Positions 535 to 8,145 of a stretch of DNA of 8,145 nucleotides are shown here, in pieces. The stretch is taken from assembly GCA_030603505.1 (NCBI GenBank), contig JAUVXQ010000047.1, positions 1 through 8,145 of the forward strand, written 5' to 3'. Each line of letters begins with the position of its first letter. Position 1 is the stretch's first letter. Under the pieces are notes generated by a model. It was given only the letters and a program-made list of their open reading frames with translations. It was not told the origin of the DNA and did not search any database. The position numbers were made by a program, and so were the translations under genes. This DNA is from Candidatus Heimdallarchaeota archaeon. Lineage in GTDB: Archaea > Asgardarchaeota > Heimdallarchaeia > Heimdallarchaeales > Heimdallarchaeaceae.

Positions 535-588
535 AGGTCAACAGATAGTTTTATAAGAAATTCTTTTTGTCGAGGAAAAAATACGACT
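535..588 (+). repeat. Left terminal inverted repeat (54 bp)
   Basis: It starts AGGTCAACAGATAGTTTT. The first 23 bases match the reverse complement of 2041-2063 exactly; over all 54 bases I count 47 matches with no gaps. The match stops at the outer edge: base 534 (G) does not pair with base 2064 (G). The inner third holds palindrome copy 1 (569-587). Confidence 0.9.
569..587. repeat. Interrupted palindrome copy 1, GTCGA-N9-ACGAC
   Basis: A 19-bp motif with arms GTCG/CGAC, inside the left TIR. It starts exactly 34 bp from the left end of the element, mirroring copy 6. The fifth arm position is A on both sides and so does not pair. Confidence 0.75.
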
Positions 589-762
589 TAGTTTTGTAAG
601 TGAAGTGAAAGAAGGAGATTTGATACGGAATTGGAAAGAGTTAGGAATAGAGAAAGAAGTAAGTCGAGAAAAATAGACGACTGAAATTATCTGCATCTAA
701 TGATGAAACAAGTTATTCTTTGTTTTGTATTTTTGCAAAAAAAGTGAAAGCAATTTTGTAAA
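589..762. other. Non-coding left arm of the cas1 element
   Basis: Purine-rich on the plus strand, between the left TIR and the cas1 promoter, with palindrome copy 2 inside. A frame open from 557 to 676 (ending KEGDLIRNWKELGIEKEVSREK) has no good start and no recognised match, and overlaps the TIR, so I do not call it a gene. A perfect 12-bp palindrome TTTTTGCAAAAA lies near 732-743. No gene is seen between 427 and 793. Confidence 0.5.
663..681. repeat. Interrupted palindrome copy 2, GTCGA-N9-ACGAC
   Basis: A 19-bp motif flanked by a further A/T pair (AGTCG...CGACT). It lies 128 bp in from the left end, mirroring copy 5 at 126 bp from the right end. Confidence 0.7.
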
Positions 763-773
763 GTATATATAAT
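763..773 (+). promoter_or_regulatory. TATA box of cas1
   Basis: GTATATATAAT is centred about 26-27 bases upstream of the cas1 ATG at 794, preceded by an A-rich stretch that could serve as the BRE. This spacing predicts transcription starting at or next to the ATG, that is, a leaderless message. There is no Shine-Dalgarno sequence in front of the ATG, which fits. The promoter lies inside the element, so cas1 carries its own promoter. Confidence 0.6.
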
Positions 774-793
774 AATACAGGCATATATGAGAA

Positions 794-1774
794 ATGAGAA
801 GTGTTATCATAGATCAAGACGAAAGATTAATCGTACAAGGAGAAAAAATATTCATCCATACAAATCTCAAAATTATAGAAATAAAACTTTCAGATGTCAA
901 AGATATACACTGGAAAGGTAGAGGGCAAATTGATACGACAACAATCTTTTCTTTATTGCGAAGAGGGATAATAATCTACTTCCATGAACCCTATGGGATG
1001 TTTGTTGGTTCAGCTCTTCCTTTGTCCTATTTTAGTTATTCTGGAAAGATACTCCTAAAGCAAAGTGAGCATTTCAACAGTAATGAAAAGAGGTTCAGTT
1101 TAGCACAAGAAATTGAAGAAGGAATAAAGCATAATACTCTATGGTTACTGCAAAAATACAAGGGTTTCAGTTATAATATTACAGACCAGATACAAGCGAT
1201 TAAAGCGATTAATTTCAAAGATGTTTTGGATGTAGATCATCTGAAAATCAAAGAAGCTCACATGGCTACTCACTTTTACCAAGCTGTAGCTAGACTTTTC
1301 TTTTGGTGGAAATTCAAAAAACGTACAAGACGGCCACCAAAAGACCCTATTAGTGCGTTGATGTCATATGGAAATATAATACTTTATAGCAAACTTATTA
1401 CAGAAGCTTATCGAACTTTTCTTCATCCTGGAATAGGTTACATACATGAACCAGAAGCTAATAAAGCAAGTTTAGCATATGATATTGCAGATATATTCAA
1501 ACCTGTTATCGTCAATCAAACCATCTTTCATACTCTCAGTTTTTTTCTGCTCAAAGGGTCACACTTTCTAAAAAAAGGAGAAGCTGTATTATTGAATGCT
1601 CAGGGGAAAAGAATCTATCGTAAATTATTGATTAGACGGTTTGATTACCGAATTAAAGATCCCCAAACTCATTGTTCACACACTCTTTCAACTTATCTTA
1701 CAAGGGAACTATATAAACTGAGAAAACATCTCACAAATAATTCCCCTTACAAAAGTTTCAAGGCTTGGTGGTAA
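794..1774 (+). CDS. cas1: Cas1-family integrase
   Basis: A 326-residue Cas1 of normal CRISPR-Cas1 length. The N-terminal beta-rich domain (about 1-85) starts MRSVIIDQDERLIVQGEK. The alpha-helical catalytic domain holds the family signatures KIKEAHMATHFYQ (E154), RPPKDPISALMSYGN (181-194), GYIHEPEANKASLAYDIADI with H218, D230 and D233, and a C-terminus YKSFKAWW typical of Cas1 from type I/III systems. E154, H218 and D230/D233 correspond to E. coli Cas1 E141, H208 and D218/D221, so the metal site is intact. Cas1 dimers cut and join DNA ends in spacer acquisition, usually with Cas2; casposon Cas1 acts as the transposase. Here there is no cas2, effector or repeat-spacer array, and the gene sits alone between inverted repeats, which points to an integrase serving its own element. 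There is no obvious extra C-terminal helix-turn-helix domain such as casposases carry. The start is set by the leaderless-type TATA spacing; an ATG at 787 is out of frame. Confidence 0.93.
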   Translation: MRSVIIDQDERLIVQGEKIFIHTNLKIIEIKLSDVKDIHWKGRGQIDTTTIFSLLRRGIIIYFHEPYGMFVGSALPLSYFSYSGKILLKQSEHFNSNEKRFSLAQEIEEGIKHNTLWLLQKYKGFSYNITDQIQAIKAINFKDVLDVDHLKIKEAHMATHFYQAVARLFFWWKFKKRTRRPPKDPISALMSYGNIILYSKLITEAYRTFLHPGIGYIHEPEANKASLAYDIADIFKPVIVNQTIFHTLSFFLLKGSHFLKKGEAVLLNAQGKRIYRKLLIRRFDYRIKDPQTHCSHTLSTYLTRELYKLRKHLTNNSPYKSFKAWW

Positions 1775-1794
1775 AATTTGTTGTTAACTTTTAA

Positions 1795-1813
1795 GTCGTG
1801 TCTGTGATACGAC
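1795..1813. repeat. Interrupted palindrome copy 3, GTCGT-N9-ACGAC
   Basis: The longest stem of the set. The 19-bp core extends to TAAGTCGT...ACGACTTA, an 8-bp perfect stem with a 9-base loop, 21 bases after the cas1 stop codon. It could also help end or protect the cas1 transcript. Confidence 0.75.
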
Positions 1814-1821
1814 TTATTTAC

Positions 1822-1837
1822 CCACTATTTAAAGTGG
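1822..1837. repeat. Small hairpin CCACT...AGTGG
   Basis: A 5-bp stem with a 6-base AT loop, directly after palindrome copy 3 and of different sequence from the GTCGW set. A T-rich stretch follows at 1840-1866, so hairpin plus U-tract could act in ending the cas1 transcript. Weak evidence. Confidence 0.3.
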
Positions 1838-1885
1838 TGCTCTTATTTCTCTTCTTAACCCTTTTCGTAATCATTAACATCCTAA

Positions 1886-1904
1886 GTCGTTTCTAACTAA
1901 CGAC
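1886..1904. repeat. Interrupted palindrome copy 4, GTCGT-N9-ACGAC
   Basis: A 19-bp core. The stem can lengthen through a one-base bulge with CCTA/TAGG on the outside (1881-1908). The loop TTCTAACTA resembles that of copy 5. Confidence 0.7.
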
Positions 1905-1918
1905 TAGGTACCTTAGTA

Positions 1919-1937
1919 GTCGTCTCTAACATACGAC
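1919..1937. repeat. Interrupted palindrome copy 5, GTCGT-N9-ACGAC
   Basis: A 19-bp core starting 33 bp after copy 4 starts, with loop CTCTAACAT (6 of 9 bases shared with copy 4). Its outer edge is 126 bp from the right end of the element. Confidence 0.7.
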
Positions 1938-2009
1938 AACAGTACCAAAAGTTATTTTTACACTCTCTAATTACTTAATAATTTTTTCTTCTTGATGATT
2001 CAACAATTT

Positions 2010-2063
2010 AGTCGAAGTTTTCTTTCGACAAAAAGAATCCCTTATAAAACTATCTGTTGACCT
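2010..2063 (-). repeat. Right terminal inverted repeat (54 bp)
   Basis: It ends CTATCTGTTGACCT. It is the inverted partner of 535-588, with 47 of 54 positions matching without gaps. The differences cluster at two GG/AA-type sites and in the palindrome loop. That pattern is what independent point changes in an old but recognisable repeat pair would leave. Palindrome copy 6 (2011-2029) lies at its inner end. Confidence 0.9.
2011..2029. repeat. Interrupted palindrome copy 6, GTCGA-N9-TCGAC
   Basis: It lies inside the right TIR, with its outer edge exactly 34 bp from the right end. The stem is GTCGAA/TTCGAC (6 bp) with a 7-base loop. Confidence 0.75.
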
Positions 2064-2595: not shown

Positions 2596-3786
2596 TCAAC
2601 AATTCTTAAGTGGTGCTTGAACATCTCCTGGTGTTCTTCCTTTTAACACTTCCATTCCTTTCCATTCAATGACAGGGACCTTTTCATCAAAAATAAACTC
2701 ACCAGTTTTTTCTGCTTGAAGTTGAATTTTTCCATGAATCCCTTCTTCAGCTTTTTCCATGAAGTGAATTTTTATTACTTGTTCTTTACTTCCCACAAAA
2801 TCCCAAATTCCAGTAACTTTACCATTTACTAGTATTGAATTTGTGGCATTACCTGAGCGATCATAAATATAATTATAGTACTCCTGTTTTACATATCTTT
2901 CTCTATTTTTATATCCCATCAGATATGGATCTAAATTCGGAAGAAGGTTAATCACATCATCAACTATATCTGTTGCTTTTCTTAGTTCTTCTATTTCAGA
3001 TTGGAGAATGAAATATTCATTTTCTATCCCTGAGATAGAGATTTTAGTTATCTGATTTCCTAAATCCTTTAAAGCTTCTCGAGTTTCAGTTTTATTAAAT
3101 CCAGTCCACCATACAATATCTGTTTCAGTTGCTGGTCCTAAGCTCTTTAAATAGTATTTTACTAGAAATAATCTACTCTCTTCTTCATTATAATCGTCTA
3201 GTTTCATTATAGGGAAATATTCACTGAAATCTGAGTAAGTATGCCTTCTATCCCGCCAACTTTTATTTGGTTTATTCCTGATAATGAGCGCTTGATCACA
3301 AGCGAGATTAACTATAGCACTGATATTCTCTTGAGAATTCAATGTTTTTTTTATTTCTGATACTGAGATATTGTTTACTTTCAACACATCAAGAATCGCT
3401 TTCACATTCTTCTGGTATTTTTCTTCAGAAACTCCTAGATTCTTTAAGTAACCCACATGACGCTTCGCATATTGTTTCTTAGTTGCAGCATATATATATG
3501 GAACAATTTCTTTTGCTAAAATAAATACAGTTCCTCGCATACAGCGAATCTTGCCCAATTTCTTCTTTTCATAAGCTTCTTCATCTAATTGATTCCTCTT
3601 AAAATTTTTAGAACGAGTTTGAAGCGATAAATAGGGCGTTGTTTGGCTTGTACTATGCAACCCACCAATATCTAGAGCTATCTGTGTAACATCATCAATC
3701 TTGGTTTCATCTGTTAAATGTTGTTTATTTAATACAAATCGGTTAATCGTTGCTACATTAAATTCTTCCAAATCATTATTAATCAT
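2596..3786 (-). CDS. AlkZ/YcaQ-like winged-helix (HTH_42) protein
   Basis: A 396-residue protein of the HTH_42 family, which includes the DNA glycosylases AlkZ and YcaQ/AlkX. Visible landmarks are GLHSTSQTTPYLSLQTR (42-58), RCMRGTVFILAKE (81-93), the winged-helix segment SLGPATETDIVWWTGF (215-230), LLPNLDPYLMGYKNR (281-295) and GKVTGIWDF (322-330). Length is normal for the family. Characterised members use a Q-x-Q or Q-x-D motif after a G-L pair; here the matching place reads G-L-H-S-T (residues 42-46), so the catalytic Gln is not conserved and glycosylase activity is uncertain. If active, it would remove alkylated or crosslinked bases; otherwise it is a DNA-binding protein. The ATG at 3786 is the only start in keeping with family length; no clear Shine-Dalgarno precedes it. 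It converges on the methyltransferase remnant, with about 30 bases between the two stops, and diverges from the gene at 3933. Confidence 0.8.
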   Translation of the reverse strand: MINNDLEEFNVATINRFVLNKQHLTDETKIDDVTQIALDIGGLHSTSQTTPYLSLQTRSKNFKRNQLDEEAYEKKKLGKIRCMRGTVFILAKEIVPYIYAATKKQYAKRHVGYLKNLGVSEEKYQKNVKAILDVLKVNNISVSEIKKTLNSQENISAIVNLACDQALIIRNKPNKSWRDRRHTYSDFSEYFPIMKLDDYNEEESRLFLVKYYLKSLGPATETDIVWWTGFNKTETREALKDLGNQITKISISGIENEYFILQSEIEELRKATDIVDDVINLLPNLDPYLMGYKNRERYVKQEYYNYIYDRSGNATNSILVNGKVTGIWDFVGSKEQVIKIHFMEKAEEGIHGKIQLQAEKTGEFIFDEKVPVIEWKGMEVLKGRTPGDVQAPLKNC

Positions 3787-3932: not shown

Positions 3933-4298
3933 GTGAATAGATATGAAACAATTGAAGTGTGGAATAGGGTTCAGAAAATAATTCTTGCTAGGATTGAGAA
4001 ATTAATTCAGGATGGTTGCGATCTCTGTAAAGATGATAAAAAATGTGAAGAACTAGCTGACTCTACAAATAAAGAAATCGTTAGAACTTTGGTCAAGGAG
4101 TTTAATATATCTGAATATGAAATCCCTCGACTAATGGATAAATTTTATCCTATTATTATTGATTGGATTAATAGTTTGAAGTTGAAAAATTGTGAAAGAT
4201 ACAAAGAAGAAGGAAGGTTAAATGAACTTTCTATTTCAATAACAAATGATTTGGTCAGATCTTTTTTAGAAGAAGAGGATTATGTTGAGCTTTCGTAG
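3933..4298 (+). CDS. Small helical protein made of two tandem repeats
   Basis: 121 residues, family not recognised. It has no signal peptide or membrane segment and is probably cytosolic. Its striking feature is an internal duplication: residues 16-56 and 74-114 align without gaps at an offset of 58. Shared positions are I16/I74, I17/I75, I21/I79, L24/L82, C29/C87, K33/K91, E40/E98, L41/L99, S44/S102, V50/V108, R51/R109 and E56/E114, with many conservative changes between. The first copy also has a C-x2-C-x5-C cluster (C29, C32, C38), of which only the first Cys survives in the second copy. It is predicted mostly alpha-helical and charged, with an acidic C-terminus (EEEDYVELS). The GTG start is supported by GGAG at 3921. 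It diverges from the AlkZ-like gene and converges on the protease gene, so it is probably transcribed alone. Confidence 0.75.
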   Translation: MNRYETIEVWNRVQKIILARIEKLIQDGCDLCKDDKKCEELADSTNKEIVRTLVKEFNISEYEIPRLMDKFYPIIIDWINSLKLKNCERYKEEGRLNELSISITNDLVRSFLEEEDYVELS

Positions 4299-7006: not shown

Positions 7007-7095
7007 TTAAACGCAACTATGTTGAGGGACAACAGAGCGACGTGAAGGTCGACTCAGACGACCACTACCACCTATCTTCACAAGGGAAGACTCAG
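7007..7095 (-). ncRNA. Candidate omega-RNA scaffold at the 3' end of tnpB
   Basis: The last part of the tnpB coding strand can form three small hairpins in a row: TCTTC/GAAGA (7075-7090), GGTCG/CGACC with a 7-base loop (7047-7063) and GTTG/CAAC with a 5-base loop (7021-7033). In characterised TnpB systems the guide RNA overlaps the 3' end of tnpB and runs past the element's right end. The position and folding potential fit, but no covariation can be judged here and the 3' boundary (scaffold-guide junction) is unknown. Confidence 0.4.
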
Positions 7096-8145
7096 GGGCT
7101 ACTTTTTTGAGGATGTTCAAGGCACCGTTAACATCAGCATTCAAAACTATGTTACAGTTCTTGCAAACATATAACCCTCGATATTTACGATTGGCTTTTC
7201 TTCGCAGACCACAGAGGGAACAAGTTTGAGAGGTGTAGGATTCATCAACCTCTTTATAGTCAATTCCATATAATTCACTTTTTGCTTCTAATTTGTGCTT
7301 GAATAAGCCGTAAGTAATGTAATGAAAGTTCTGTGTAGTTCTCTTACCCAACCTACAATGCTTTTTGATGTTTTTCATTTCTCCAACAACTATGGTGCCA
7401 ATATTGTTCTCCTTACAGTGTTTGATGATTTCATTTACTGCTTGAGACATGAAATTACGCAAATAATACCTTCTCTTTCTTGCCAATTTCATCATTTTGG
7501 TGCCAGTTTTGATACCTTGTTTGTCATACTTTTTTTGTAATTTTGCTTTCTTTTTGTTCCACCAACGGTTAAAAGATTTTATTCCATGTCCTTCGATTAT
7601 GAAGGCTGTCCCGTCAGTGTCAACTATTGTTGCGAAATTATCCAACCCCAGGTCAATTCCCAGATATTTAGTACTATCAACAGTGATGCTTTCTTTCGCT
7701 TTATCAAACACAAACTCTATTTCGAAATACATTCCCCAATTGCGTGGGAGAATTCTCACTTCTTTCACTTCTTCCCCTCTTAGATGGCAAGGGAAGCTAA
7801 ATCTCAAGAATCGTTTACTAAGATTTTTTGTTATCCACCTTCCAAGTGAGAGTCTAATTGTCTTTCCTTGCACTTTATAATAACCAGGAGTGAAGGAGAG
7901 TAGAAAGAACCCTTCTTTTGGTAAGTACCATGGTTCTTTAACCCTTTCGGTGTATTTTCCTTGTTCTTTCGCTTTCATTAAGCTGAAAAAGGATTTGTAA
8001 GCTTGTTCAGCTCTTCTAGCTGTTTGTTGAGCTATTTGTGCTGGTAGACGCTGATAATAGTCATTAGCTTTGATCATAGGGTATGCTTTGTTGTAAGAAA
8101 GAAAAGTTTTGTTTGTCTCCCACTCTCTCTTTATCAACCACAGCG
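7007..8145 (-). CDS. tnpB: TnpB RNA-guided nuclease of an IS1341/IS605-type element, 5' end outside the window
   Basis: The 376 residues from a TTG at 8137 are not the whole protein: the frame stays open to the right edge and the usual first strand of TnpB before the YN helix is missing, so the true start lies beyond 8145. Landmarks, numbered from that TTG: an N-terminal helical region with LPAQIAQQTARRAEQAYKSF (31-50), RuvC-I GIDLGLDNFATI (D162), RuvC-II IVVGEMKNI (E253), a zinc finger with C306, C309, C325 and C328, and RuvC-III NADVNGALN (D335). The catalytic triad and finger are intact, so the nuclease is probably active. The tail GGSGRLSRPSRRSVVPQ is the compositionally biased end that overlaps the omega-RNA in this family. 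TnpB cuts DNA guided by that RNA and favours retention of the element. No tnpA is seen, but it could lie beyond the edge; IS1341-type units lack it. Confidence 0.93.
   Translation of the reverse strand, partial: LWLIKREWETNKTFLSYNKAYPMIKANDYYQRLPAQIAQQTARRAEQAYKSFFSLMKAKEQGKYTERVKEPWYLPKEGFFLLSFTPGYYKVQGKTIRLSLGRWITKNLSKRFLRFSFPCHLRGEEVKEVRILPRNWGMYFEIEFVFDKAKESITVDSTKYLGIDLGLDNFATIVDTDGTAFIIEGHGIKSFNRWWNKKKAKLQKKYDKQGIKTGTKMMKLARKRRYYLRNFMSQAVNEIIKHCKENNIGTIVVGEMKNIKKHCRLGKRTTQNFHYITYGLFKHKLEAKSELYGIDYKEVDESYTSQTCSLCGLRRKANRKYRGLYVCKNCNIVLNADVNGALNILKKVAPESSLVKIGGSGRLSRPSRRSVVPQHSCV

Follow-up and report, generated by a model that had tools for sequence, protein, structure and literature searches.

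A lone Cas1b-like gene between terminal inverted repeats in a Heimdallarchaeota contig: a candidate minimal Cas1 transposon

The stretch of DNA analyzed here, 8,145 nt long and called the window throughout, contains a cas1 gene enclosed by 54-bp terminal inverted repeats in an element of 1,529 bp (535–2063). The anatomy around this gene is real, non-random and transposon-like. We give an even chance to the reading that the element is a minimal Cas1 transposon, or a once-active copy of one, with an integrase derived from CRISPR Cas1b. By one neighboring protein, an M48 protease, the contig is placed among Asgard archaea, near Heimdallarchaeaceae. The features are the following.

535..588, plus strand: terminal inverted repeat of 54 nt on the left; its outermost 23 nt recur at the right end
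569..587, unstranded: dyad 1, within the left repeat, 34 nt from the end of the element
663..681, unstranded: dyad 2, left arm
763..778, plus strand: putative archaeal TATA-like stretch before cas1, recognized by eye
794..1774, plus strand: cas1, 326 aa, Cas1b-like, E154/H218/D230/D233 present
1795..1813, unstranded: dyad 3, right arm, soon after the cas1 stop
1886..1904, unstranded: dyad 4, right arm
1919..1937, unstranded: dyad 5, right arm
2010..2063, minus strand: right terminal inverted repeat, 47/54 match to the left repeat
2011..2029, unstranded: dyad 6, within the right repeat, 34 nt from the end of the element

The two arms match in inverted orientation at 47 of 54 nt, with the outermost 23 nt identical, and the same pair is the longest inverted repeat in the window, where it extends to 530–593 and 2005–2068 (83% over 64 nt). 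When the window was shuffled 20 times with its dinucleotides preserved, inverted pairs of 54 nt reached no more than 33–38 matches. A sequence-only reading made earlier had described this repeat pair with the same counts, and a single intact cas1 between the repeats. Both descriptions are confirmed, the gene product matching PF01867 (E 1.2e-54) and the largest other ORF in 535–2063 having 52 aa. The putative TATA-like stretch, AAGTATATATAATAAT, lies 16–31 nt upstream of the cas1 ATG and would plausibly suit a leaderless archaeal transcript.

By sequence, the encoded protein appears to be related, though distantly, to CRISPR Cas1b more than to casposase. Its best NCBIfam model is TIGR03641, at 237 bits, under the model cut-off of 304. 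The CRISPR Cas1 structures 4wj0 and 7ei1 are among its closest sequence matches in the PDB, 4wj0 being the best at 136 bits vs 28 bits for casposase 6opm; by fold comparison, CRISPR Cas1 and casposase score nearly alike. In a tree that contains no casposase rows, the window Cas1 falls together with its relatives P0001 and P0002 in a 24-row group holding rows named Cas1b, and the stem of this trio is 2.05 changes per site long. E154, H218, and D230 are invariant across the 24 aligned Cas1 proteins, and D233 is present in the window Cas1. Within the trio, substitutions tend to fall outside the columns that are conserved in the family (72 variable and 252 conserved columns, p = 3e-4), and the protein is thus under constraint. 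Both the tree and the conservation test leave out the near-identical P0012–P0015, and the alignment leaves out matches P0019, P0020, P0022–P0024, and P0029–P0032. One Cas1 match, P0024, is a protein of 567 aa with reverse-transcriptase (PF00078) and Cas1 domains.

An internally deleted casposon, which lost polB and other genes and kept its casposase and inverted ends, would likewise bring inverted ends together with a Cas1. "Family 5" casposases, mostly without a DNA polymerase, have been proposed from hot springs, according to the accessible part of the source (PMC9755687). Such an origin is nevertheless very unlikely for this element, the Cas1 of which resembles CRISPR Cas1b more in sequence than it resembles 6opm, the single casposase used for comparison, in an analysis with a casposase-free tree.

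The closest relatives of the window Cas1 are P0001 (90% identity, 9 members) and P0002 (81%, 11 members). Matches beyond these two have about 35% identity or less over their length, the next being P0003 at 35%. P0001 is listed on a contig of 1,525 bp and P0002 on one of 1,474 bp, the element itself measuring 1,529 bp. Assemblers tend to split off repeated elements as contigs of element size, and the two sizes hint weakly at a unit present in several copies; the hint is weak because the contigs are known by size alone and may stem from related samples. Contigs of 1,468–1,590 bp, a band picked after the data had been seen, hold 2 of 30 other Cas1 matches vs 0 of 31 methyltransferase matches. The contig sizes of the M48 matches did not serve as a control, since that gene exceeds the band.

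Among the genome loci with a Cas1 relative (the best 7 of 11, L001–L007), a Cas2 recognized by Pfam lies just after cas1 in six, and a CRISPR array occurs in the stretch around cas1 in five. In L003 and L007 the sequence stops no more than about 0.5 kb past cas1, so that an absent cas2 or array says little there. The type I-B CRISPR adaptation module (Cas1b) is the closest sequence family of the window Cas1 (TIGR03641, 4wj0, 7ei1), from which the window gene differs in its very long stem branch and in its surroundings: the Pfam scan detected no Cas2 among the nine window proteins, no CRISPR array was detected in the 8,145 nt, and no effector gene of a CRISPR system was found in the window. Most of the nearest relatives with readable surroundings thus belong to CRISPR loci, and the window cas1 has left that setting.

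The non-coding arms of the element carry six copies of the dyad GTCG-N11-CGAC, two on the left and four on the right, all with the 11-nt spacer, and the rest of the window has none. The outermost copies sit inside the terminal repeats in mirrored positions. This six-dyad arrangement is new beyond the repeats and cas1 noted earlier. The mean number of copies expected by chance is 0.0015 per shuffle of the arms. In 2,000 shuffles, no 4-mer dyad containing two or more G/C occurred more than three times, and for all 4-mer dyads, AT-rich ones included, six was reached in 2 of 3,000 shuffles. RNA hairpins were considered for the dyads and set aside, folding being uneven among the sites: four of the six beat shuffles (z -2.3 to -3.7), site 663 is weak, and site 569 forms no dyad hairpin. 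The constant spacing, the variable middle and the uneven RNA folding speak for a DNA site recognized by a protein with two-fold symmetry, and putative protein-bound DNA sites fit the dyads better than RNA hairpins. Unequal numbers of binding-site-like repeats at the two ends are a familiar transposon pattern, and the repeats and dyads together look like transposon ends with repeated putative dimer-binding sites.

As a minimal Cas1 transposon, the element would move as follows. Cas1 dimers would bind the GTCG-N11-CGAC sites, and the bound Cas1 would bring both element ends together. The 3' ends would then be exposed and joined to the two target strands by the chemistry of casposases and spacer integration, and the gaps would be filled by host polymerase and ligase. 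As no PolB is encoded in the element, replication and repair would be those of the host.

Mobility driven by its own Cas1 is a proposal, and a non-autonomous element moved in trans by another transposase would look identical from sequence. Such a passenger would have captured its Cas1b gene from a CRISPR locus, and its dyads would bind the foreign transposase or a host factor. Many transposase and integrase families are described for two Heimdallarchaeum genomes in the accessible part of their report (PMC8813620). This course of events is judged rather unlikely, because cas1 is the sole sizeable gene and is under constraint, and because the Cas1 diverged strongly after its departure from Cas1b. 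Against it also stands a search of viral contigs, a poor sample of Asgard DNA, in which the 15-base end with an extended inverted partner was unseen. The 15-mer end pattern occurred in 79 stretches, and an inverted partner with at most three mismatches within 10 kb was present at eight loci; the six of these that were checked (all but L074 and L091) showed no extended terminal match. The 18-mer end pattern was found in three viral stretches and the match extends in none of them. Two of the viral loci, L017 and L048, resemble phage structural-gene regions by eye, and L078 repeats the L048 sequence at matched places.

The sequence-only reading had proposed looking for further copies in the same genome and its relatives; none appeared in the viral contigs, plasmids, and phages searched. 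The dyad pattern is present in at least 120 viral stretches. Among 214 loci, the most dyads in one locus were four, widely spaced. The viral contigs hold no close relative of cas1, and one distant Cas1 relative was located there (L215:229–900, 32% identity). The element DNA has no match in plasmids and phages, and the Cas1 protein matches, 3 records from phages and 153 from plasmids, are all below 60% identity.

The traces that insertion could have left were also sought. Within 10 nt on either side of the ends, no target-site duplication rose above random flank pairs, and erosion is possible. An empty site was reconstructed by joining 441–534 to 2064–2620, which gives an ATG-led frame of 23 codons that enters the decayed methyltransferase. 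Methyltransferase homologues (18 aligned; 31 found besides the window's own) begin differently from the joined frame, and the claim of an empty site was therefore dropped.

A resident, non-mobile solo Cas1 locus with a role in repair, defence or regulation would agree with these results, since neither a further copy in the collections searched nor a target-site duplication at the ends nor a supported empty site was seen. In such a locus the dyads would be operators, and the end repeats incidental or structural. The GC content of the element, 32.4%, equals that of the window (32.9%), and Asgard Cas1 homologues are described as very diverse, with some in non-CRISPR systems, in the accessible part of PMC8730458. 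Perfect 23-bp ends lying 1.5 kb apart, together with the mirrored outermost dyads, are however transposon-like, and the gene adjoining the right end (2239–2565) appears decayed. We consider a resident locus unlikely. The reading as a minimal Cas1 transposon, or a once-active copy, is preferred.

Small insertion sequences have one gene between inverted ends, and Tn7-like ends have several unequal binding-site-like repeats. The element differs from these in its enzyme, which is a Cas1 and not a DDE, HUH, serine or tyrosine transposase. Like casposons of families 1–4, it has a Cas1-family integrase with its catalytic residues kept between terminal inverted repeats, and no other recombinase is seen; in plan it is casposon-like. 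Casposons are described, in the accessible text of the sources, as encoding a B-family DNA polymerase in every case (PMC4046053) and as about 6–20 kb in size (PMC9939771), and the target-site duplication of the A. boonei casposon is given as 14–15 bp (PMC6614799). The element has 1.5 kb, a Cas1b-like integrase and no detected target-site duplication, and a family B DNA polymerase gene is absent inside it, the longest ORF besides cas1 being too short at 52 aa; lacking PolB, it falls outside casposons. Of the earlier proposal of a casposon-like transposon, the part that stands comprises the inverted ends, the lone cas1 with catalytic residues and without another sizeable ORF, and now the six dyads; the assignment to casposons in the strict sense is not supported, PolB being absent and the Cas1 scoring far better against 4wj0 than against 6opm.

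"Family 5" casposases, placed in hot springs beside subtype I-A and mostly without PolB in the accessible part of their description (PMC9755687), share with the element a Cas1 without CRISPR, kept catalytic residues, the lack of an HTH tail, and in some cases inverted ends. Compared by that description, they adjoin subtype I-A Cas1 and several hypothetical genes, whereas the element has one Cas1b-like gene. Cas1-solo group 1 of Methanomicrobiales is described as being without the full catalytic residue set (PMC4046053, accessible part), unlike the window Cas1, which keeps it.

No described one-gene Cas1 transposon recognizable as this element was found in the accessible parts of the open-licence literature. 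Makarova et al., in CRISPR J in 2020, reportedly called Asgard Cas1 homologues "possibly associated with novel MGE." These homologues may include this very element. In PMC8730458 the Cas1 of Asgard genomes is said to be highly diverse and in part possibly carried by new mobile elements; the Asgard host, the divergent Cas1 and the possible mobile element are shared with the element described here. The paper on the Heimdallarchaeum genomes uses neither cas1 nor casposon in its main text, as far as that text is accessible (PMC8813620).

On the accepted view, CRISPR adaptation derives from casposons. If the element is a one-gene transposon built on a CRISPR-type Cas1, the step from casposon to CRISPR can run backwards, and the element would offer a minimal 1.5-kb system for studying what Cas1 needs for transposition when Cas2 and a dedicated polymerase are both absent. 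The fuller history, which we put forward tentatively and hold to be somewhat improbable, is that a Cas1b spacer-acquisition enzyme in Asgard archaea lost Cas2 and the array, gained inverted ends with six putative dimer sites, and turned into an insertion sequence with a single gene, in reverse of the accepted casposon-to-CRISPR route and independently of casposons.

Scanning the window with Rfam at the gathering threshold and for tRNA genes gave no match. The rest of the window holds the following features. At the right end of the element lies a decayed class I methyltransferase (2064–2565; 2239–2565), the N-terminal part of which is interrupted by stop codons and by a shift of frame. It is followed by an AlkZ-like DNA glycosylase (2596–3786, minus strand, PF06224) and a 121-aa ORF (3933–4298, plus strand) with no significant Pfam or NCBIfam match. 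A TnpB gene (7007–8143, minus strand; guided_TnpB 185.6 bits, cut-off 100) has a frame that leaves the window end, and a GTCG/CGAC-rich stretch is present at 7038–7062, just past the TnpB stop. The best named matches of the neighboring M48 protease carry the labels Heimdallarchaeota, Heimdallarchaeaceae, Heimdallarchaeum, or Asgard group, with 61–68% identity over nearly full length.
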